DNA from: Thiocapsa rosea
GTDB lineage: Bacteria > Pseudomonadota > Gammaproteobacteria > Chromatiales > Chromatiaceae
Assembly: GCF_003634315.1 (NCBI RefSeq)
Contig: NZ_RBXL01000001.1
Location: 5,312,501-5,376,500, forward strand
Length of the DNA: 64,000 nucleotides
Direction: 5' to 3'
Both the position numbers and the translations under genes were made by a program. Position 1 is the first letter of the stretch; each line of letters opens with the position of its first letter. Under the pieces are notes generated by a model. It had not been told where the DNA came from. It ran no database searches and saw nothing but the letters and a program-made list of their open reading frames with translations. Below are positions 3 to 8,368 of the stretch, piece after piece.

Positions 3-455
3 ACGGTGGACATGTCCCGGACCTATCTGGACTGGGCGCGCGATAATCTCGCGCTGAACGCGATCCCGATGCAGCGCCATGAACTGGTTCAGGCGGACTG
101 TCTGCAGTGGCTGGAAGAGGCCGCCGGCAAACGCCAATACGACCTCATTTTTTTGGATCCTCCCAGCTTCTCGACCTCCAAGCGGATGACGGAGACGCTC
201 GACATCCAGCGCGACCATGTCGGCCTGATTCGAGCCACCACCCGGCTGCTCAAGCCGGGCGGTCTGCTGGTGTTTTCGAACAATCTGCGCCGGTTTCGGC
301 TGTACGCGGAGGATCTGGCGGATCTCGAGATCCAGGATATCAGCCGCGAGACCATCCCTCGCGACTTTGCCCGCAACCCGCGGATCCACCAATGTTGGCG
401 CATCACCAAGCCTAGGTCGCCGTTCCCGCCGACCGATCCGCTCAGCTGTCGGTGA
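3..455 (+). CDS. rlmL: 23S rRNA methyltransferase RlmL (RlmKL), C-terminal part
   Basis: This is the C-terminal end of the bifunctional RlmL/RlmK enzyme, which methylates 23S rRNA at m2G2445 and m7G2069; only the RlmK-type Rossmann methyltransferase half lies in the window and the 5-prime part is cut off by the window edge. Visible family marks are LDWARDNLALN (SAM-binding region), QADCLQWL, the catalytic-loop motif DLIFLDPPSFS, the QRDH segment and the closing DFARNPRIHQCW. The reading frame is open to the window edge, so the ATG at position 12 is internal. The last 14 bases overlap the convergent end of the PufC-OmpA gene, so the final residues after ITK are unlike those of relatives. Confidence 0.9.
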   Translation, partial: TVDMSRTYLDWARDNLALNAIPMQRHELVQADCLQWLEEAAGKRQYDLIFLDPPSFSTSKRMTETLDIQRDHVGLIRATTRLLKPGGLLVFSNNLRRFRLYAEDLADLEIQDISRETIPRDFARNPRIHQCWRITKPRSPFPPTDPLSCR

Positions 456-3180
456 GGTTGCTCACCGCGTCGTTGCCGGTCTGCTCGATCATGACGATCT
501 CGACGCGCCGATTCTCGCGTCGCCCCCGATCGGTCGCGTTGTCGGCGATCGGCCGTTCGGCACCATAGCCCTCGGTGCTGAGTCGGCCGGGATCCACCCC
601 GCGCTCGATCAGAGCCTGCATGACCGATTCCGCACGCTGCCGAGACAGGGCCTGATTGATCTCCGGGTTGCCCAGGCTGTCCGTGTGCCCGGCGATCTTC
701 GCCTTCAGGTCGGATCTTGCTGCAAGCATCTCGGCGATACGGTCGAGCATCGGCAGCGCGCCTGCCGGCAGAACGGCGCTGCCGCTCGGGAACCGAAGCT
801 CCTCCCCGCCGAGGTTGACCACAATGCCCTCCGGGGTGATTCGTCCGCCGACCTCGGCCGCACCTTCATAAAGCGTGCGTAACCGTGTGATCGACTCCTT
901 GGCTTCGGCCAGCTCGTGCGCATGCTCCGTTGCCGCAGCCTGCTTGCGTGCCCGCAGATCCGCGGCGGCGGCGTCCGACTCGGCGAGCATTGCCCGCAAG
1001 GCATCCATTTCCTCCGTCAAGGCAGCGATCTGCGACTCGGACTCGGTGTCCGCTAAGGCGGCGTCGCGCTGCGCGCGGACCACGCCAAGCTGCTGCTGCA
1101 GGGCGACGCGCTCCTGATCGAGTCTTGCTCCGGCGGCCCGGAGCGCCGCTGCGCGCTCTTCGTCCAGCTTGGCGATCTGCCTCTCGGCTTCGGCCGCAAC
1201 GGCATCGCGCTGCCCACGAACTACGGCAAGCTGTTGCTGCAGGGCGGTGCGCTCTTGATCGAGCCTCGCCCCGGCAGCCCGCAGGACCGCGGCCCGTTCA
1301 TCCGACAGCTTGGCGAGCTGCCCCTGCGCCTCGGCCGAAACCGAATCGCGCTGCCCACGAACCACCGCAAGCTGCTGCTGCAGGGCGGTGCGCTCCTGAT
1401 CGAGCCTCGCGCCTGCAGCCCGAAGAGCCGCAGCCCGCTCTTCGCCCAGCTTCGCGATCTGCAACTCGGCCTCGGCCGCAACCGCATGACGCTGAGCGCG
1501 AACCACCGCAAGCTGTTGCTGCAGCGCGGTACGCTCCTGATCGAGCCTCGCCCCGGCAGCCCTCAGAGCCGCCGCTCGCTCTGCGGTCAATTTGGCGGCC
1601 TGCATCTGCGAATCGGCCGCGACCGCATCGCGCTGCCCGCGAACCACCGCAAGCTGTTGCTGCAGAGCAATCCGCTCCTGCTGCAACCTGGCATCCGCAG
1701 CCGCGCGATCCCCCTCGCCTTGACTCAGTGTCGCTGCATGCCGGCGATCGCGTTCGGCGATCTCGGTCTCGGCTTCGGCGATCGCGGCGTCGCGCTGCGA
1801 GCGAACGCTCTCCAGTTCTTGAAGCAGTGCAGTGCGCTCGGTTTCGGCTAGTCCGGCGTCCGACGCGACAGCAGGCTCAAGCGCTGGTTCGAGCGCGACC
1901 TCCGCCACGTCCTCCTGCATCGGCGCCTGCGTGTCATCCAGTGCCGCAATCAGCGCGCTTTCCGCACCCGGCTCCGCAAGCGCAAGCACCGCCGGCTCCT
2001 CCGGCACGACCCCCGGTCGTTCCGTGCGATATCCAGCCAGCTCGGGGTAGTCGCCTAGCATACTGACCCCGAGCAGCGGTTTGAAGGCACCTTTGTGGCA
2101 GGTGTCGCAAGCCACCTTAGGTGCATCGCCGGTGGGCCCCAGTCGCTCCGTGGGATACAAGGTCTTAAGGGGATTGAGATAGTCGCCGTTGAGCTCGCGC
2201 ACCATCCGAATGCCGTGCCACGCGGTGACGCGTTGCGGCGTGCTCTGTTCCCAAACACCCATCGCCCGGGTTTGGTGACAGTAGGTGCAGTTCACGCCCA
2301 GCGAATTAGACATATACATCATCAAGGCGTAGGTCCATTCCGCCTTCTTGATCGAGTTTCGGTTATCCGAGGGCAGTGCCGTCAATCCCTGAACGGAGAC
2401 CTGAGCGTCGCCGTCGAAAAACGGCGTCAAGGGATCAAACGGAAGCGACGAGTTACCGACGGTCCGCATGCCCGACGTGTTTTGGCCCGCCTTGACGCCG
2501 GTTATCCCGGCCGACGGGGTCGTAGGTCCGAGGTTGGTGAACCAGGTACCGGAGGGGACCGCCTGGCCGCGGTGGCAGGTCCAACAGGTGACACCGGTCC
2601 CCGCGACATGAGACTTCCAATTCGAATTGATGTCCCGTGTCATCTGCAGCATTTGCCGCGAGACAACCTTGGTGTATTTCTCGTCCGAGGCCAAGTTCTC
2701 GGTGTTGTGGCAGTATTCGCAGCCCTCTTTGGGAGCGACCCAAGTCGACATCGCCTGCATCAGGCGTGCGAGTTCGAGTGCATCCAGGTCAGTGAGCACC
2801 TGGATGTTTTCATTGACCTCCGTCGCGAGGGGTATCGCGGGGTCCGGCGGATCGCGAGGCTCGGGTTCGGGAATGCTGTGGATATCGGCCGCTGCCATCA
2901 ATCGACCGGGTTTATCGATGTGGATCATCGACGTGCCGCGCTCTCCCCACTGGACGCTCTCCGTGCGATCGCAACCGACCAGGCTCAAAAGACTGCACAC
3001 CATCAGACCGGTCACCACCCGGGTCGAGCCTCTGCGAGTCGATGCGCGATGCGAATGAATGGAACTGTCTAGGGTTGACGACGGCACAGCGCCAATGGCC
3101 GTTTGCCGGTCGATCCGCTGCATGCGCCGGTGCGCAACGTGCACCCACGCGTGCTCCGAAGTGCCTGCGGGACACCTCAT
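442..3180 (-). CDS. PufC-type tetrahaem reaction-centre cytochrome fused to coiled coil and OmpA domain
   Basis: The protein has 912 residues with the start at 3180, chosen because GGAGG lies 8 bases upstream. A basic stretch and a hydrophobic segment end in a lipobox LVGC (Cys70) followed by Asp, which in enterobacteria keeps lipoproteins in the inner membrane. Residues about 84-390 are a full photosynthetic reaction-centre cytochrome c subunit: haem motifs CEYCH (154), CWTCH (199), CTYCH (298) and CDTCH (358), with family segments TWVAPKEGC, MTRDINSNW, STPQR and DYPEL. Normal PufC ends there, at about 340 residues. Here a linker, a helical region (about 443-775) with nearly five 47-residue repeats, and an OmpA/Pal-like domain (about 780-900, GHTDSLG and NRRVEI) follow. 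Known PufC passes electrons from HiPIP or cytochrome c to the special pair; tethering to peptidoglycan is inference. The 70 residues before the lipobox are unusually long, so a later start is possible. Confidence 0.88.
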   Translation of the reverse strand: MRCPAGTSEHAWVHVAHRRMQRIDRQTAIGAVPSSTLDSSIHSHRASTRRGSTRVVTGLMVCSLLSLVGCDRTESVQWGERGTSMIHIDKPGRLMAAADIHSIPEPEPRDPPDPAIPLATEVNENIQVLTDLDALELARLMQAMSTWVAPKEGCEYCHNTENLASDEKYTKVVSRQMLQMTRDINSNWKSHVAGTGVTCWTCHRGQAVPSGTWFTNLGPTTPSAGITGVKAGQNTSGMRTVGNSSLPFDPLTPFFDGDAQVSVQGLTALPSDNRNSIKKAEWTYALMMYMSNSLGVNCTYCHQTRAMGVWEQSTPQRVTAWHGIRMVRELNGDYLNPLKTLYPTERLGPTGDAPKVACDTCHKGAFKPLLGVSMLGDYPELAGYRTERPGVVPEEPAVLALAEPGAESALIAALDDTQAPMQEDVAEVALEPALEPAVASDAGLAETERTALLQELESVRSQRDAAIAEAETEIAERDRRHAATLSQGEGDRAAADARLQQERIALQQQLAVVRGQRDAVAADSQMQAAKLTAERAAALRAAGARLDQERTALQQQLAVVRAQRHAVAAEAELQIAKLGEERAAALRAAGARLDQERTALQQQLAVVRGQRDSVSAEAQGQLAKLSDERAAVLRAAGARLDQERTALQQQLAVVRGQRDAVAAEAERQIAKLDEERAAALRAAGARLDQERVALQQQLGVVRAQRDAALADTESESQIAALTEEMDALRAMLAESDAAAADLRARKQAAATEHAHELAEAKESITRLRTLYEGAAEVGGRITPEGIVVNLGGEELRFPSGSAVLPAGALPMLDRIAEMLAARSDLKAKIAGHTDSLGNPEINQALSRQRAESVMQALIERGVDPGRLSTEGYGAERPIADNATDRGRRENRRVEIVMIEQTGNDAVSNLTDS
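1062..1692 (-). repeat. 141-bp tandem repeat (47 residues) inside the coiled coil
   Basis: About 4.6 head-to-tail copies of a 47-codon unit, recognisable by GARLDQERTALQQQLAVVR and EERAAALRAA, encode the central helical rod of the PufC-OmpA protein. The copies are nearly identical, which suggests recent amplification and a variable rod length between strains. Confidence 0.9.
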
Positions 3181-3412
3181 CGCTGTGACCTCCAATGCTC
3201 GATGCCCTGCGTCCGGCTGCACCGGACGATCGGCTCTGTTTTAGTGGCGTGATGGCGAGACCAATGCCCCGGTCTCCGGCCCGTGTCTCCGGGTCCATCG
3301 ATCTTTTGGCCCGAGTGCAGCGTGCAGCCCTGTCGCGTCGATCGAGCCCGCTCCGGCTGAACCGGTATCTTTGCGCCGACCCGTCACTGTTCTTGTCGGT
3401 CGGCGCATCGGT

Positions 3413-3742
3413 CTAAGCTGCGGCATTGGGCTTGAAGTTTCGGCACCAGCCGTCGACCGGCACCAAACGTTTACCGAAGAAGGAACAGGGTCCGAGCGGC
3501 TCGCCCGGCTCCCCGGAGAACAACTGACACTCGCTGCATTTCTGCTCGACCGTGTGCTTGGGGTATTTGGCCTGGTCGACCTGCGTGGTATCCAAGCGGA
3601 AACCCATTGACTTCGCGTAGGCGTCGTCTTCGGTCAAGACAGCCGTCTTCGCTTCCTCGGCAAGGCTCCAGCGACTCAGGGCGAGTGCGGACCCTCCCGC
3701 CACGAGTTGAAGCATGAAGGTCCGGCGATTGCATTCGCTCAT
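3413..3742 (-). CDS. hip: High-potential iron-sulfur protein (HiPIP)
   Basis: This is a small periplasmic 4Fe-4S electron carrier, which in purple sulfur bacteria reduces the haems of the reaction-centre cytochrome. The protein has 109 residues with the start at 3742 (GAGGG 8 bases upstream). It opens with a twin-arginine signal (NRRTFMLQLVAGG), as expected for a carrier that is exported folded. The four cluster ligands are Cys69, Cys72, Cys86 and Cys100 in the spacing C-x2-C-x13-C-x13-C, with the family segments CSECQLF and GWCRNF. It sits 232 bases upstream of the PufC-OmpA gene and 150 bases downstream of soxZ on the same strand. This makes it the natural electron link between the Sox-like proteins and the tetrahaem protein; that role is inferred from context. 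Confidence 0.92.
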   Translation of the reverse strand: MSECNRRTFMLQLVAGGSALALSRWSLAEEAKTAVLTEDDAYAKSMGFRLDTTQVDQAKYPKHTVEQKCSECQLFSGEPGEPLGPCSFFGKRLVPVDGWCRNFKPNAAA

Positions 3743-3892
3743 GGTGTTTGCCCTCGTTCGTTTGGTGGTGTGTGTCACGTTGCAACGGGCTCCGTCATGG
3801 AAACGAAACCCGTTAGGCCGGCTTTCCCCGATCGCTGCCCCGACTGGAGACACGATCGGATGTTCCAGCGCCGCTGCCGTCCGGTATCGACG

Positions 3893-4204
3893 TCACAGGA
3901 TCGAGGCCGAACCGGTTCCCAGGTCACCCACGTTGTCCGTCCAGGTGACGTTGAGGCGATCACCCGGCTCGCCGCCCTTGAATCGAAACGCGATCAAGGG
4001 ATCCTTCGAAACGGCGATGCTCAAACGCGCCTGTAGCACCGTGCGATCGCCGAGCTTGACCTCGACATCGCTGATGTAGTGGGCGCGGCGCCCCTTCCCC
4101 GATGCATCCAACCCCAGTCCTGTCTCCATTGGATGCGGCATCAAGACCATCACCTCGGTGATGCCGTCGTTGCTTCTTGCGCGGATTCGTATCGGATCAG
4201 CCAT
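3893..4204 (-). CDS. soxZ: Sulfur-compound carrier subunit SoxZ
   Basis: SoxZ pairs with SoxY to form the periplasmic carrier on which thiosulfate sulfur is oxidised. The protein has 103 residues, normal for the family, and shows the immunoglobulin-like fold marks DGITEVMVLMPHPMETG, HYISDVEVKLGDRTVL and SKDPLIAFRFKGGEPGD. It carries no signal peptide, as is usual because it is exported with SoxY. It follows the soxY-like gene by 54 bases on the same strand, and a HiPIP gene comes next. No soxB, soxA or soxX in their usual full-length forms are in the window. Confidence 0.9.
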   Translation of the reverse strand: MADPIRIRARSNDGITEVMVLMPHPMETGLGLDASGKGRRAHYISDVEVKLGDRTVLQARLSIAVSKDPLIAFRFKGGEPGDRLNVTWTDNVGDLGTGSASIL

Positions 4205-4258
4205 CCTGTTTCACTCTCGTTCGCCCCCGAAAGAGGCCCCTCCTCGGGGCTCGGATGC

Positions 4259-4810
4259 TCAAACGCATCCGCCAACCGTGACACGCGTCTGCGCGACCCG
4301 TGAGTAGAGACGACCACTCGCCCTCACCACCGCGTATACCGGACCGCTTTGCGCCAGCTTCAGGCGTACCGAGACGAATGGATCGGTCCCGCTCGGAATC
4401 TCGAAGCAAACCGCGGCCGGATACGGATTGCTCGCGACCAGGACGTAAATCTCCGAGACTCCATCGAGTGTGCTCGACACCGTCACGGGCACGACGGCCC
4501 CGTCCTCGACGACGCCGGGCAAGGTCACATCGACAACTGTGTCATTCGCCGAGGTGCTCCCGAGAATGGCGAGCGCCTCGTCCATCGTCGTGGCTGAGAA
4601 GAGGTCGGCGCATTGCGGTGTCTGCGCGTGAACGGAGCCGAGCAGACCGCTTTGCAACAACACCCAAAACAGGCCACCGGTCACGATCAAACCGCGCCGA
4701 TCACGATCGACGTCGGCCTCGTCCTCGGTCCCGTCCGTCCCGATCGAAACAGCCGTGGCGTGAGGCCGCGCCGCATCGACAGCGTGTTTGTGTCCGAGCC
4801 GGGAGATCAT
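4259..4810 (-). CDS. soxY: SoxY-like carrier protein with altered C-terminal arm
   Basis: This is the sulfur-carrying partner of SoxZ, with substrate held on a cysteine in the flexible C-terminal arm. The start at 4810 gives 183 residues; its ATG overlaps the TGA of the DUF1566 gene (ATGA), implying translational coupling. A possible twin-arginine signal (DRDRRGLIVTGG, residues 36-46) precedes the mature part. Family segments include SEIYVLVASNPYPAA, GTDPFVSVRLKLAQS and VYAVVRASGRLYS. The protein ends VTVGGCV: the carrier cysteine (Cys182) is present, but the usual GGCGG ending is shortened to GGCV. It probably works with the neighbouring SoxZ; whether the shortened arm accepts the usual substrate cannot be told from sequence. 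Confidence 0.85.
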   Translation of the reverse strand: MISRLGHKHAVDAARPHATAVSIGTDGTEDEADVDRDRRGLIVTGGLFWVLLQSGLLGSVHAQTPQCADLFSATTMDEALAILGSTSANDTVVDVTLPGVVEDGAVVPVTVSSTLDGVSEIYVLVASNPYPAAVCFEIPSGTDPFVSVRLKLAQSGPVYAVVRASGRLYSRVAQTRVTVGGCV

Positions 4811-5346
4811 GGTGCCGTGCGCACGAGGCGGACCGCATGTCGCTCGGTTTTCGCCACATGCTGCACGCCCTCCGGTCCGAAGCTCAGGGCGTATGCGTGG
4901 TCCTCGAAGCCTTCGCCCGGTCGCAACGAAGCAGTCCAGAAGAGGCTCGGCGGGGTGCTCGGAAACACAGCAAGGTTGATTCGCGGGTTCTCGCATTGCC
5001 TCTCGGCAATCATTGCGAGATCGCGCAGTTGCGGCACGCGCCAGTCGTTGAAGAAACGTACTCCGCTCGCGTTCGTCGTTGCCGCAAGCTCCTGAGCCCC
5101 CGGCCAGTCATAAACGGCTGCTTCCCCGACACACGTACTGCCGGACCAGCTCTGTCCTGTGGAGCAGCGCATCCACATCAGCTGGGCGACCTCATCCGTC
5201 ACGGTGCCGTCCCCGTTGTCGCTGAACCGTTCCGTCGGCGACGACAACGGATAGCGGCTGGTGTCGCAGGTTTGTTCGGCGAAGCTCGGGGCGACGAGGA
5301 CGCCTTGAACGATCATCAAAACGAATGCAGCTCTGCCCGGCATCAT
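4807..5346 (-). CDS. DUF1566 domain protein, secreted
   Basis: A 179-residue protein with a signal peptide (MMPGRAAFVLMIVQG, cleavage likely near PSFA-EQ) and a DUF1566 (Lcl C-terminal) domain. This is marked by RFSDNGDGTVTDEVAQLMWMRC, the segment WRVPQLRDL, LFWTASLRPGE and a final HAVRLVR. Such domains occur in secreted or surface proteins of unknown role. The start at 5346 was preferred over 5409 because it gives a clean signal peptide and has GAGG 9 bases upstream. The stop overlaps the SoxY start, so the product is made together with the carrier and may act as its periplasmic partner; that is inference. Confidence 0.75.
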   Translation of the reverse strand: MMPGRAAFVLMIVQGVLVAPSFAEQTCDTSRYPLSSPTERFSDNGDGTVTDEVAQLMWMRCSTGQSWSGSTCVGEAAVYDWPGAQELAATTNASGVRFFNDWRVPQLRDLAMIAERQCENPRINLAVFPSTPPSLFWTASLRPGEGFEDHAYALSFGPEGVQHVAKTERHAVRLVRTAP

Positions 5347-5477
5347 CGGATACAGCCTCGAAGACTGAAGAATCACGACACGCGACTGTCGACACGACAT
5401 TGTCGACACCGCACATCATCCATCGGCAGGCTAACCTCAAAGAGAGACCTGCCGATGGCCCGTCATTTCAAGTCGGG

Positions 5478-5990
5478 TCAGGGCTTGGTGTCGACGCCGA
5501 TGCCGGTCGGTGTTCGTGCGAAACCGGTGCCGTATTCGACGACAATCGGTGTCGTCTGCTCGCTTGCCAGACCGGGGGTGATCTCCTTGCCGCGATGCAG
5601 ATAGAAGGCGTAGGCTTCCATGGCGGTCATGTCGTCTCCATCGACGTCGAGCCTCGCCCCTGCCTGGGGGTTCTCGATGCACCAATTCACCATCTCACGA
5701 AAGGGAATGACCTTGCCGTACATCGTCATGTACTTCGGAAAGGTTTGCGGATTGGACGCAGCCGTATCGGGATGACAGTTTCCACAGGCGAGACCATTGG
5801 TCGTCATATCCGCACGGCTGCCGTGCCAAAGGTCATACCCCAAGGCGATCGATTCGACCAAAGCCGCCTTCTGCTCTGCAAGCTCTTCATCCGTAAAGGG
5901 CGCACGTGCCAAACTGGTCCCTGCCGCAAGAACCGCGGCGACCGCCGACACCGCCAAGATCCGGTCGATCTTCAGCATCTTATTCGTCAT
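5478..5990 (-). CDS. Single-haem c-type cytochrome related to SoxA/TsdA haem domains
   Basis: The protein has 170 residues with a signal peptide (hydrophobic stretch to about residue 28) and one haem motif, CGNCH (69-73). The following pattern, FPKYMTMYGKV then EMVNWCIENP and a YAFYLHRG helix, matches the haem domain of thiosulfate dehydrogenase TsdA and the C-terminal domain of SoxA. In those proteins a cysteine in the N-x-C segment is the distal haem ligand; here that is Cys104. Those enzymes join thiosulfate to a sulfur acceptor or to itself, so a similar reaction on the nearby SoxY cysteine is plausible. AGGGGAG lies just before the start, 11 bases after the phosphoesterase stop. Confidence 0.75.
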   Translation of the reverse strand: MTNKMLKIDRILAVSAVAAVLAAGTSLARAPFTDEELAEQKAALVESIALGYDLWHGSRADMTTNGLACGNCHPDTAASNPQTFPKYMTMYGKVIPFREMVNWCIENPQAGARLDVDGDDMTAMEAYAFYLHRGKEITPGLASEQTTPIVVEYGTGFARTPTGIGVDTKP

Positions 5991-6001
5991 GATCGCTCCC
6001 C

Positions 6002-7021
6002 TTAGACCTTGAACCCGTCTCTCATAAATGGTGTCAGCGAGTCTTCGAACGGTTGGTACTGGACCAGACCCTCGAAAGATTCGCTCAGATCGATGACCTG
6101 TGTACCCATCCCGTCAGTCGAGATCGACGGATCCGCCCGATTCATCCGAGTCTCGGGGAAAGCAAGTTCCACAGGGGGATAAGGCCAAGGCCAGGCCGTT
6201 CCGAGGGCCGCAACGGAACTCATGTTTCCGATCCGGTTGTATAGCGTCTGATGGACATGACCGTGATAGGACATGACGTTGTCGAACTTCGACAGGATCT
6301 CGCGAATTTCGGGCGCGTCCGAGGTTTGGAAGTTCCAGCGCGGGTAGTAATCCCACAGCGGCGAATGCGTGAAGATCACAACAGGCGTGTCCGGCGCCAG
6401 GTCCTTGACGTCGTTGGCGAGCCATTCGAGCTGCTTCTCGTGCACGCCCCATGGACCGGGGATCGGGCTCTCGAGCATTTCCATGACCGTCATGCGCTCG
6501 AGCGGGGTCATTCCGGCTCCGGTCCAAAAGTCCCGAACCAAAATGGAGTTGAGGCCGATGAAATGCACCCCCTTGTGATTGAACGACCAGGTCTCGTCGC
6601 CGAAAAGCCCCCGCCACGCATCACCCATATCGAGATACCAATCGTGCTCGCCGGGGATGATCTTCATCGGCATCTTCAGATCCGCGAGGATCTTGCTCCC
6701 TTTCACCAACTGGTCTTCCGTTCCGTTTTGTGCGACGTCGCCGCCGAACAGCACAAAGTCGGGAAGCGGCGTCATCGCATTGACCTGGGCTACCGCCTCT
6801 GCGAGCTGTTGGTCGAACTTGTGGTCGGGCATGCTGTAGAGATGCGCGTCGCTGATGATGGCGAATCGGAATGGCTCGACGCCCCGCTTACCCGTTTGCG
6901 CGCGGACGATATCGACAACGCCGAGATTGATTCCGACCGCCTGCGCGACCAAAGTCGTCAAGCCGGCCTTGCCGGCAAACGACAGAAACTGCCTTCTGCT
7001 GTGATCTACAATGTCAGACAT
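6002..7021 (-). CDS. Tat-exported calcineurin-like metallophosphoesterase
   Basis: The protein has 339 residues; the start at 7021 was chosen over an upstream GTG because GAGGTGGAG precedes it. A twin-arginine signal (HSRRQFLSFAG, residues 7-17) leads into a single metallophosphoesterase domain. Metal-site motifs are SDAH (57-60), GGD (93-95), GEHD (124-127, a variant of GNHD), FTHS (217-220) and YHGHVH (252-257). SoxB, the hydrolase of the Sox pathway, belongs to the same superfamily but is about 560 residues with an extra 5-nucleotidase domain, which is absent here. Being first in a run with SoxYZ and a SoxA/TsdA-like cytochrome, it may replace SoxB in releasing sulfate from SoxY; this is inference, and a plain periplasmic phosphoesterase is the alternative. 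Confidence 0.8.
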   Translation of the reverse strand: MSDIVDHSRRQFLSFAGKAGLTTLVAQAVGINLGVVDIVRAQTGKRGVEPFRFAIISDAHLYSMPDHKFDQQLAEAVAQVNAMTPLPDFVLFGGDVAQNGTEDQLVKGSKILADLKMPMKIIPGEHDWYLDMGDAWRGLFGDETWSFNHKGVHFIGLNSILVRDFWTGAGMTPLERMTVMEMLESPIPGPWGVHEKQLEWLANDVKDLAPDTPVVIFTHSPLWDYYPRWNFQTSDAPEIREILSKFDNVMSYHGHVHQTLYNRIGNMSSVAALGTAWPWPYPPVELAFPETRMNRADPSISTDGMGTQVIDLSESFEGLVQYQPFEDSLTPFMRDGFKV

Positions 7022-7627
7022 TGTTGTCTCCACCTCGTTGTTGGCGTCTTCTGAACAGCGCCGATAGTGTTGTCACGTGTCCAAGATCCATTCAACGCAT
7101 CGACAGGGCAATGAGCTGCGTCTGACCGAGCGAAGCGATTTCACAGGATTCCAACCTGCGATCATCCGAGCGGAAATTTCTATCGCTTTAGTCGTTATCA
7201 CCTATCGTCATTATTGACGTAACAAGGATGTAGTGTTGACAGGAATGGTGTCAAGCGTCCGACCAAAATAATTTTATCGGCGAACTTCATAAAGACTATT
7301 CCATCATATTAGTAAAATCGAATACGGTGGAGCTATTGAGATGGACATTGCTCTCAATCCGAGTACGCGAATTCAATGAATGAGGTGTGGTTATTCGAAA
7401 AGGCTGGATTGAAAGAGCCGTTCGAATGGCCAAGGTGAATATGCAGTCGCGCGGAGTGCGCAACCTATTCTCCCCGAAGTCTCTGCCGATCAAAAGCGTC
7501 AGACAGACCCGGTGACTGCGTTATCATGTCGATCCATCGGGATGATGAACGAAGAGCGACGCCTCGAAATCAAAGCGTCGGTCGAGGCGCAGACGCGCAC
7601 ACCCACACACGAAGACGGAGTCGATCA
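7022..7627. promoter_or_regulatory. Intergenic region upstream of the Sox/PufC cluster, AT-rich, with dyads
   Basis: About 600 bases with no credible gene. Bases 7150-7400 are clearly richer in AT than their surroundings. Two dyads are visible: CGTCA-TTAT-TGACG at 7206-7219 and TTGACA-N7-TGTCAA at 7236-7254. Read on the minus strand, the second gives a perfect -35 hexamer TTGACA pointing at the phosphoesterase gene, with a poor -10 (TACATC) 16 bases on. A regulated promoter for the cluster is therefore likely here, but no regulator can be named. Confidence 0.45.
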
Positions 7628-8368
7628 ATGAGCACGGCGGGTCCACTCATCCTTTTCGGTACGGCACATCTGAGCAGCGTGCTCGTCATCGCAGCGATCG
7701 GTGTCGGGTTACCCCTGCTGGCGCGCCGAACGCTGAGTATCGCGGCGCAATACCGAGTGGGGCTCTTGATCGCGGCCCTTTTGATCGGGCAGGAGGGTTT
7801 TCATATCTGGCTGCTGGCAAACCGTTACGACCAGCTCTTGAGCAGCCTGCTGCCTCTGCATCTGTGCGGACTGTCGGTGCTGCTGACCGCCTGGGTTCTT
7901 GCGGCGCGATCCTATTCCGCTTATGAGATCGTCTATTTTTGGGCGTGGGGCGGGACCCTTCAGGCACTCATCACACCGGATCTGGACAGGGGATTTCCTG
8001 ACCCGGCCTTTATCGCCTTTTTTCTCGGGCATGGGCTCGTCATCGTCGGCGTCCTCTATGCCACCTTGGTCTATCGTTTCAGACCGAGACTCGCATCCAT
8101 CTTCAAATCCATCGGTGTTTTGCTGCTCGTGGTCGCCGTCGTTGCTCCCCTCAACCTCTGGTTGGGGACGAACTATCTCTTCCTCTGCAGCAAACCCGAG
8201 CAGGCGTCCTTGATGGATTATCTCGGCCCCTGGCCTTGGTACATCTTGAGCCTGGCCGGATTGGCGCTGGTGTCGAGTGTCATCTATTACCTGCCGTTCC
8301 TGATCGGGGATCTTGTCGCGGCGCGCTCGCGTGCGACGCGTCCGTCGCCGCCATCATCGCGGGGATGA
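7628..8368 (+). CDS. TIGR02206/YwaF-type integral membrane protein
   Basis: A 246-residue protein with about seven membrane helices. It resembles the YwaF/TIGR02206 family of unknown function, recognisable from the LPLHLCGLSVLLTAW segment, the WAWGGTLQALITPDL segment and the NYLFLCSKPEQASLMDYLGPWPWYI segment. The start at 7628 has GGAG 7 bases upstream and removes a polar 34-residue N-terminal extension of the longer frame. It points away from the Sox/PufC cluster and stands alone; no function is assigned. Confidence 0.8.
   Translation: MSTAGPLILFGTAHLSSVLVIAAIGVGLPLLARRTLSIAAQYRVGLLIAALLIGQEGFHIWLLANRYDQLLSSLLPLHLCGLSVLLTAWVLAARSYSAYEIVYFWAWGGTLQALITPDLDRGFPDPAFIAFFLGHGLVIVGVLYATLVYRFRPRLASIFKSIGVLLLVVAVVAPLNLWLGTNYLFLCSKPEQASLMDYLGPWPWYILSLAGLALVSSVIYYLPFLIGDLVAARSRATRPSPPSSRG

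Follow-up and report, generated by a model that had tools for sequence, protein, structure and literature searches.

A conserved phosphoesterase-cytochrome gene module in Thiocapsa rosea, possibly an electron donor to the photosynthetic reaction centre

Introduction

It is only partly understood how the reaction centre of purple bacteria receives electrons from different donors. The window analyzed here, a stretch of 64,000 nucleotides of the Thiocapsa rosea chromosome, carries a cluster in which a phosphoesterase, a mono-haem cytochrome and Sox proteins are followed by a high-potential iron-sulfur protein (HiPIP) and a PufC-type cytochrome. An earlier note, made from the letters of the window, had read this cluster as a reduced Sox cycle wired to the photosynthetic chain. 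We therefore asked whether the cluster is an alternative Sox system and whether it is tied to the reaction centre. We assign a probability of roughly 50% to the reading that the cluster encodes a periplasmic module that donates electrons to the photosynthetic reaction centre, probably from a sulfur compound.

Results

Gene content of the module

Seven genes lie on the minus strand, running from 7021 to 442 in the order MPE, Cyt, Lcl, SoxY, SoxZ, HiPIP and PufC-OmpA (Table 1). Pfam family matches reproduced the gene set, order and strand that the earlier note had described. MPE and Cyt are separated by 11 bases, the stop codon of Lcl and the start codon of SoxY overlap in ATGA (4810-4807), as the described coupling of the DUF1566 gene to SoxY implies, and the gap before PufC is 232 bases. 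With these distances, an operon is plausible; a scan of the module for promoter and terminator patterns performed no better than on shuffled sequences. The twin-arginine-like signals of MPE and HiPIP and the lipobox-like motif of PufC were read from the sequence. A gene for a TMEM164-domain protein (PF14808, E 7e-49) is located at 7526-8368 on the plus strand, divergent from MPE, and is found at the same place in six loci of the genus Thiocapsa (L047-L052).

Table 1. Genes of the module and their positions in the window
Gene	Product	Position	Strand	Family match
MPE	Calcineurin-like phosphoesterase, twin-arginine signal SRRQFL	6002..7021	-	PF00149, E 1.3e-13
Cyt	Mono-haem c-type cytochrome of SoxA/TsdA type, CxxCHP, putative haem ligand Cys104	5478..5990	-	PF21342 SoxA-TsdA, 2.7e-9
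Lcl	DUF1566/Lcl_C protein, probably exported, start uncertain	4807..5409	-	PF07603, 3.1e-24
SoxY2	SoxY paralog, C-terminus GGCV instead of GGCGG	4259..4810	-	PF13501, 1.9e-24
SoxZ2	SoxZ of the module-specific clade	3893..4204	-	PF08770, 3.2e-28
HiPIP2	High-potential iron-sulfur protein, twin-arginine-like signal	3413..3742	-	PF01355, 1.1e-17, start codon checked
PufC2-repeat-OmpA	Tetrahaem reaction-centre-type cytochrome, lipobox-like LVGC	442..3180	-	PF02276, 4.7e-129; PF00691 OmpA, 4.5e-21

Canonical sox genes in the host genome

The earlier note had stated that canonical SoxB and SoxAX are absent at this locus. This is correct for the locus only: on the same chromosome, SoxX, SoxA and SoxB lie together at ~4512-4516 kb. 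Further, a GGCGG-type SoxY and a SoxZ are encoded at ~2427 kb, which completes the standard soxBXAYZ set. All five proteins scored above the NCBIfam cut-offs, and a SoxAX-binding protein scored just below its cut-off. The genome contains five SoxZ copies in total. Because canonical SoxB, X, A, Y and Z are also present, the module does not replace Sox in this host. The same genome encodes a 399-aa SoxA/TsdA-type protein with a long N-terminal extension (L046:4959-6158, ~4543 kb), separate from the canonical soxA, and has two matches to the flavin-binding domain of flavocytochrome c sulfide dehydrogenase (PF09242; L001 and L002).

Distribution and gene order

MPE was detected at E <= 1e-20 in 24 of 210 genomes of the order, including that of the window. 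We compared 100 distinct loci, excluding the window's own, and all counts describe this sample. A scan of named genomes contributed 80 loci, the best 80 of 461 relatives, chosen by MPE similarity; completeness is not given for these genomes, so absences there weigh little. Loci L077-L084, on the same contigs as L047, L049, L051, L054, L057, L056, L058 and L060, were dropped before counting.

Cyt was directly downstream of MPE in 95 of the 100 loci, and in the other five the contig ended 19-310 bases after MPE. Lcl was present in 54 loci. HiPIP was found in 30, all with Lcl, and PufC accompanied it downstream in 25 and upstream in two (L105 and L108); in the remaining three (L095, L097 and L099) the contig ended 1.3-1.6 kb after MPE. 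Among 14 close loci (L047-L060; MPE ~83-98% identical), MPE, Cyt, Lcl, HiPIP and PufC occurred in this order in all 13 that were long enough, L055 being cut; SoxYZ was absent from three of the 13 (L052, L053 and L060). Fourteen more distant loci of the same family (L061-L074; MPE 38-46% identical) have Cyt where the contig allows but carry neither HiPIP nor PufC. Among them, SoxB and SoxZ occur in L065 alone, at a distance of 7-9 kb. Gene order is conserved across genomes. Since the order of the module recurs in gamma- and betaproteobacteria at protein identities down to ~36-40%, chance does not explain it.

Four arrangements were distinguished and checked on example loci. In arrangement A, a CCP/MauG-type gene directly precedes MPE-Cyt. 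This form occurs in Aquificota, Leptospiraceae, Myxococcota, Planctomycetota, Kryptonia, Vicinamibacteria, Methylocapsa and several loci of the window's own family, and in Aquificota and Leptospiraceae a carboxypeptidase-regulatory-like protein precedes the CCP/MauG-type gene. Arrangement B, MPE-Cyt-Lcl, occurs in Gallionellaceae (Betaproteobacteria) and gammaproteobacteria; some copies have an OxyR-like LysR gene as a neighbour, and three have catalase nearby. Downstream of two class B modules lies a gene (L101:9199-10548 and L103:9199-10548; L101 was scanned) whose product has a cytochrome c554 domain and an N-terminus that resembles, by eye, a 5'-nucleotidase-type start. Arrangement C, MPE-Cyt-Lcl-(SoxYZ)-HiPIP-PufC, is that of Thiocapsa, Thiohalocapsa and many betaproteobacteria. 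A divergent LysR gene was found in 12 of 18 betaproteobacterial class C loci and resembles that of L099, which has CbbR as its best NCBIfam match, below the cut-off. In arrangement D, the carboxypeptidase-regulatory-like protein, MPE and Cyt occur with cbb3-type oxidase genes (L061 and L070).

In the MPE tree (100 rows), class C and L106 formed one clade of 33 with an SH-aLRT support of 100; its neighbours were class B of Gallionellaceae, then other class B, then class A of Aquificota. The MPE and PufC trees were built with a quick method, with a midpoint root for drawing only, and gains and losses were read from them.

Reaction-centre genes and the module-specific HiPIP and PufC

Reaction-centre L/M was found in 29 of 56 module genomes searched (G223 only partly). 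HiPIP was present at the module in 28 of the 29 L/M-positive genomes, the one exception being L093, whose contig stops after MPE. Among the 27 L/M-negative genomes, one of which (L112) is cut too short to tell, HiPIP was at the module in two (L105 and L124). Both are metagenome-assembled genomes (MAGs) that have PufC at the module; the contig with the reaction-centre genes may be missing from them. Thus, the proposed tie to the photosynthetic chain was upheld. One contig, L054 of Thiohalocapsa, also carries the puf operon, the end of which is ~3 kb upstream of MPE.

This tie holds for the class C clade only, because some phototroph genomes hold MPE-Cyt copies without HiPIP or PufC beside them (L070 and L074 in G113, L072 in G156 and L106 in G231; L071 and L073 are cut). 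Copies of type A or D occur in addition to C in the phototroph genomes with L070 and L074 (G113), L072 (G156), L071 (G112) and L073 (G118). The copy L106, of Comamonadaceae bacterium ZE-17mar17-99, is a second MPE-Cyt-Lcl set in a phototroph genome with no HiPIP or PufC nearby; upstream are cbb3-like oxidase genes and the regulatory-like protein, and a swap of the electron outlet within one genome is possible.

HiPIP2 and PufC2 are each one of two copies in the host genome, the others being at 392 kb (HiPIP) and 784 kb (PufC). With four CxxCH motifs and an equivalog score of 436 bits against a cut-off of 150, PufC2 is predicted to be a tetrahaem reaction-centre cytochrome. Its linker to OmpA contains 4.4 copies of a 141-bp (47-residue) repeat at 1064-1680 and looks coiled-coil-like by eye. 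Module PufC frames range from 780 to 1402 aa in L047-L059 and measure 358 aa in L060; the OmpA domain is present in 11 of 13 complete Chromatiaceae-family copies (not in L059 and L060).

Duplication of both carriers is common in class C. There were two PufC in 27 of 31 class C genomes, three in one and one in three, and at least two HiPIP in 18 of 21 (own included) and one in three; HiPIP was found in one of 13 class A/B genomes. The accessible part of a study of Thiocapsa LSW gives multiple pufC and two HiPIP copies (PMC8767323). In a PufC tree of 58 rows, 28 module copies and 30 puf-operon copies formed two clades (SH-aLRT 100). The puf-operon set comprised 29 copies assigned by position beside PufM on the same contig and the second PufC of the window genome, which was added without this neighbour check. 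Module PufC proteins keep four CxxCH motifs and the conserved Met and His positions; that of L124 is a fragment with two CxxCH.

SoxYZ is an optional part

SoxZ2 scored above its equivalog cut-off (102.6 against 76 bits) and SoxY2 below that of GGCGG-SoxY (101.8 against 125 bits). SoxYZ is present in the cluster with the Cys kept. Of the SoxY proteins downstream in the module, all close with GGC and one further residue apart from L105 (SGCS) and L055, which is cut. SoxY and/or SoxZ were found within 4.5 kb downstream in 18 of 100 loci. SoxZ was present in 16 of the 30 HiPIP-bearing loci, and SoxYZ was missing downstream in the other 14. Neither gene was found downstream in 67 other loci, 14 of which hold less than 3 kb after MPE (L055 and L093 are cut and L106 was set aside). 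With SoxYZ so often missing, the reduced Sox cycle of the earlier note is not supported, and sulfur is not proven as the substrate. SoxYZ is optional in the module.

The downstream module SoxZ proteins of beta- and gammaproteobacteria formed one clade (17 rows, 99/99), apart from other SoxZ rows and from divergent betaproteobacterial pairs; in this tree, outside rows L236 and L241 gave no match, L237 and L238 were duplicates and L106 was left out. SoxYZ presence is patchy, because the label "with SoxYZ", which also covered the divergent pairs, requires eight changes on the MPE tree. One joining followed by several losses is the simplest reading, with transfer between modules as an alternative route. 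SoxZ of any kind, including carriers outside the module, was found in 25 of 25 class C genomes searched and one of seven class B genomes, which fits a sulfur link of class C. In three betaproteobacterial loci (L090, L092 and L093), a SoxYZ pair with GGCGG tails lies upstream in the opposite direction; the SoxZ of these pairs forms its own clade, a second, separate Sox association of the module.

SoxB scored above the curated cut-off in 28 of 56 module genomes: 13 of 13 in the window's family, five of 18 with betaproteobacterial class C (G224, G225, G229, G233 and G235) and 10 of 25 others. It was not found above the cut-off in the other 13 betaproteobacterial class C genomes, most of them MAGs of which completeness is not given. 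In this sample, the module neither needs nor excludes SoxB. Further, MPE-Cyt occurs without adjoining Sox genes in Aquificota, Myxococcota, Planctomycetota and others. The core of the module is not Sox.

Cyt resembles the catalytic domain of SoxA and TsdA

A single CxxCH was present in all 95 Cyt proteins, as was a WC motif (93 NWC, one QWC and one HWC), the Cys of which aligns at the haem-ligand position of SoxA and TsdA. Profile searches matched SoxA (1h31, 3.4e-17) and TsdA (4wqd, 2.1e-9) with this Cys aligned in both, and the best PDB matches of a predicted model of moderate confidence (pLDDT 72) were TsdA, then SoxAX. Together with the PF21342 match, these features agree with the one-haem SoxA/TsdA-type cytochrome of the earlier note and predict a SoxA/TsdA catalytic domain with a CxxCH haem and a Cys at the axial-ligand position. 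Cyt reached 36 bits against the SoxA cut-off of 110, SoxX was absent from the eight proteins scanned at the locus, and the single CxxCH does not match the two-domain, di-haem architecture of TsdA. The accessible part of a study of Allochromatium vinosum TsdA names Cys123 as an essential haem ligand that forms an S-thiosulfonate intermediate, describes electrons leaving TsdA and SoxAX via a second haem domain, and cites a disputed claim that SoxAX is active without its haem Cys (PMC4423706). Lcl had no match among PDB sequences.

MPE is closer to GpdQ and Rv0805 than to SoxB

SoxB belongs to the wide metallophosphoesterase superfamily. The nearest solved structures to MPE, by both sequence and fold, were GpdQ and Rv0805; the model is weak (pLDDT 63), and the fold match rests on its confident core. 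Residues D58, H60, D95, E125, H219, H255 and H257 were invariant in 17 aligned sequences. E125 aligns with the N of the GpdQ metal-site motif GNHD, which reads GEHD in 99 of 100 homologs (L098 is the exception). Similarity to the SoxB of the same genome was marginal (BLASTP E 0.008 over 39 residues; hhalign 58%), SoxB was absent from the 16 PDB sequence matches of MPE and from its 50 listed fold matches, among which a 5'-nucleotidase ranks 31, and no SoxB thiohydrolase was identified in the cluster. In sequence and modelled fold, MPE is closer to GpdQ/Rv0805 than to SoxB, which lends no support to the reduced Sox cycle of the earlier note. MPE could act on a phosphoester; we regard a SoxB-like hydrolase function as conceivable but somewhat improbable.

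Discussion

In our preferred reading, a two-gene core of MPE and a Cys-ligated mono-haem Cyt, helped by the DUF1566 protein, would oxidize a small substrate, for which thiosulfate, a sulfane/thiosulfonate group or another reduced sulfur compound is the most likely candidate. Cyt would form an S-S bond either with its own haem-ligand Cys or with the Cys in the tail of SoxY2, MPE would hydrolyze the terminal group of the adduct, and SoxYZ2, where present, would act as the sulfur carrier. Electrons would pass from Cyt to HiPIP2, then to tetrahaem PufC2 and the photo-oxidized special pair, and the OmpA domain of most Chromatiaceae copies may tie PufC2 to the cell wall. Elsewhere, the same core would be paired with other electron sinks. 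The families, the conserved order, the module-private paralogs, the conserved Cys and the single clade of the phototroph form are established; the substrate, the hydrolysis step, haem ligation and the direction of electron flow are inferred. From the gene and protein sequences, the route through HiPIP2 and PufC2 is likely, and for sulfur as the substrate the chances are about even. The core is read as the electron-giving part mainly because its partners change (CCP/MauG-type, cbb3-type or HiPIP-PufC2) while it stays constant. Against this stand the single haem of Cyt, whereas TsdA and SoxAX pass electrons via a second haem domain, and the OxyR-like regulators and catalase near some copies without HiPIP.

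These last neighbours would fit an oxidative-stress module, in which the core handles peroxide or oxidized thiols with a peroxidase and the phototroph form swapped the peroxidase for HiPIP and PufC. CCP/MauG-type genes directly precede MPE in Aquificota, Leptospiraceae, Myxococcota, Planctomycetota and several Chromatiaceae-family loci, OxyR-like LysR genes lie beside L066, L070, L071, L085, L086, L088, L089, L123 and L128 (three family-checked), and catalase lies near L114, L116 and L118. However, the LysR genes fall short of the curated cut-off for OxyR, any peroxidase activity of the CCP/MauG-type neighbours is putative, no CCP/MauG-type match was found beside the phototroph form, and HiPIP and PufC point to the reaction centre; we consider this explanation unlikely. 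The kinship of MPE with GpdQ and Rv0805 suggests another function, a phosphodiesterase for an organophosphate or a compound of phosphorus and sulfur, with Cyt oxidizing the product. This is rather improbable given that Cyt is of the thiosulfate-oxidizing type in all 95 loci, that SoxYZ was recruited and that Glu replaces the metal-site Asn in nearly all MPE proteins.

We also judge it quite improbable that, as the earlier note proposed in its strict form, the module is an alternative Sox replacing SoxB, SoxAX and SoxCD. The module-specific SoxZ2 clade and the 13 betaproteobacterial class C genomes (mostly MAGs of which completeness is not given) without SoxB above the cut-off would suit it, but SoxYZ is often absent, and all 13 Chromatiaceae-family genomes and that of the window encode SoxB above the cut-off. 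The DUF1566 domain and the fusion of PufC2 to OmpA could indicate a role in assembly or maturation, in which the targets of MPE, Cyt and Lcl would be PufC2/HiPIP2 or the cell wall and not a small substrate; several phyla have the core with no PufC, HiPIP or Lcl adjoining it, which makes this very improbable. Beyond the electron-donor reading, MPE and the mono-haem Cyt might constitute a minimal oxidation system that is new and widespread, with two proteins as the counterpart of SoxB-SoxA and the ligand Cys of Cyt as the carrier. In the course of evolution, its electron outlet would have changed between a CCP/MauG-type protein, a cbb3-type oxidase and, in phototrophs, a private HiPIP-PufC2 line into the reaction centre. 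We advance this idea tentatively and hold it to be doubtful.

The module appears to be an undescribed route by which purple bacteria supply photosynthesis with electrons. As the earlier note surmised, no description of it was found in the literature searched, although most subscription papers were outside the reach of this search. In the accessible part of a report on T. bogorovii BBS, the tables have separate gene entries for LT988_21280 (SoxY), LT988_21285 (SoxZ) and LT988_21295 (reaction-centre cytochrome, no KO), the tags of the module region and its neighbours appear in the tables and not in the main text, and the genome is stated to lack TsdA (PMC10892978). An arsenic gene figure, in the accessible part of another source, includes an MPE (PMC6620896), and the accessible parts of PMC12654162 and PMC11267869 do not mention the module. 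If our reading is true, phototrophs keep separate electron inlets for separate donors, with a second reaction-centre cytochrome and HiPIP joined to the same core in two proteobacterial classes. The carriers include several bins of betaproteobacterial phototrophs, ~2 Mb in size, in which no SoxB was found, so the donor could be of importance to the use of light in lakes. The core is also found in Aquificota, Brocadia and myxobacteria, which suggests a periplasmic oxidation that is common but has no name yet.

Comparison with known systems

The module resembles the Sox system in its SoxA-type domain, its SoxYZ paralog, in which a Cys lies close to the C-terminus, and its exported enzyme of the metallophosphoesterase superfamily. 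It differs in having one haem and no SoxX, an MPE that is not SoxB, an optional SoxYZ and its own HiPIP and PufC. TsdA, including TsdBA, is the best structural match of Cyt and shares the catalytic-domain haem and Cys, whereas Cyt lacks the second haem domain and lies beside MPE in all 95 loci. MPE is similar to GpdQ and Rv0805 in sequence and fold but has a twin-arginine signal, GEHD for GNHD and a neighbouring cytochrome. Di-haem proteins of the CCP/MauG/MbnH type adjoin the same core in many loci, where they score below the NCBIfam MauG and MbnH cut-offs, and were not found beside the phototroph form. Finally, PufC2 shares four haem motifs and their conserved surroundings with the PufC of the puf operon, whereas it belongs to a separate clade, is encoded outside that operon and, in most complete Chromatiaceae-family copies, carries an OmpA domain.
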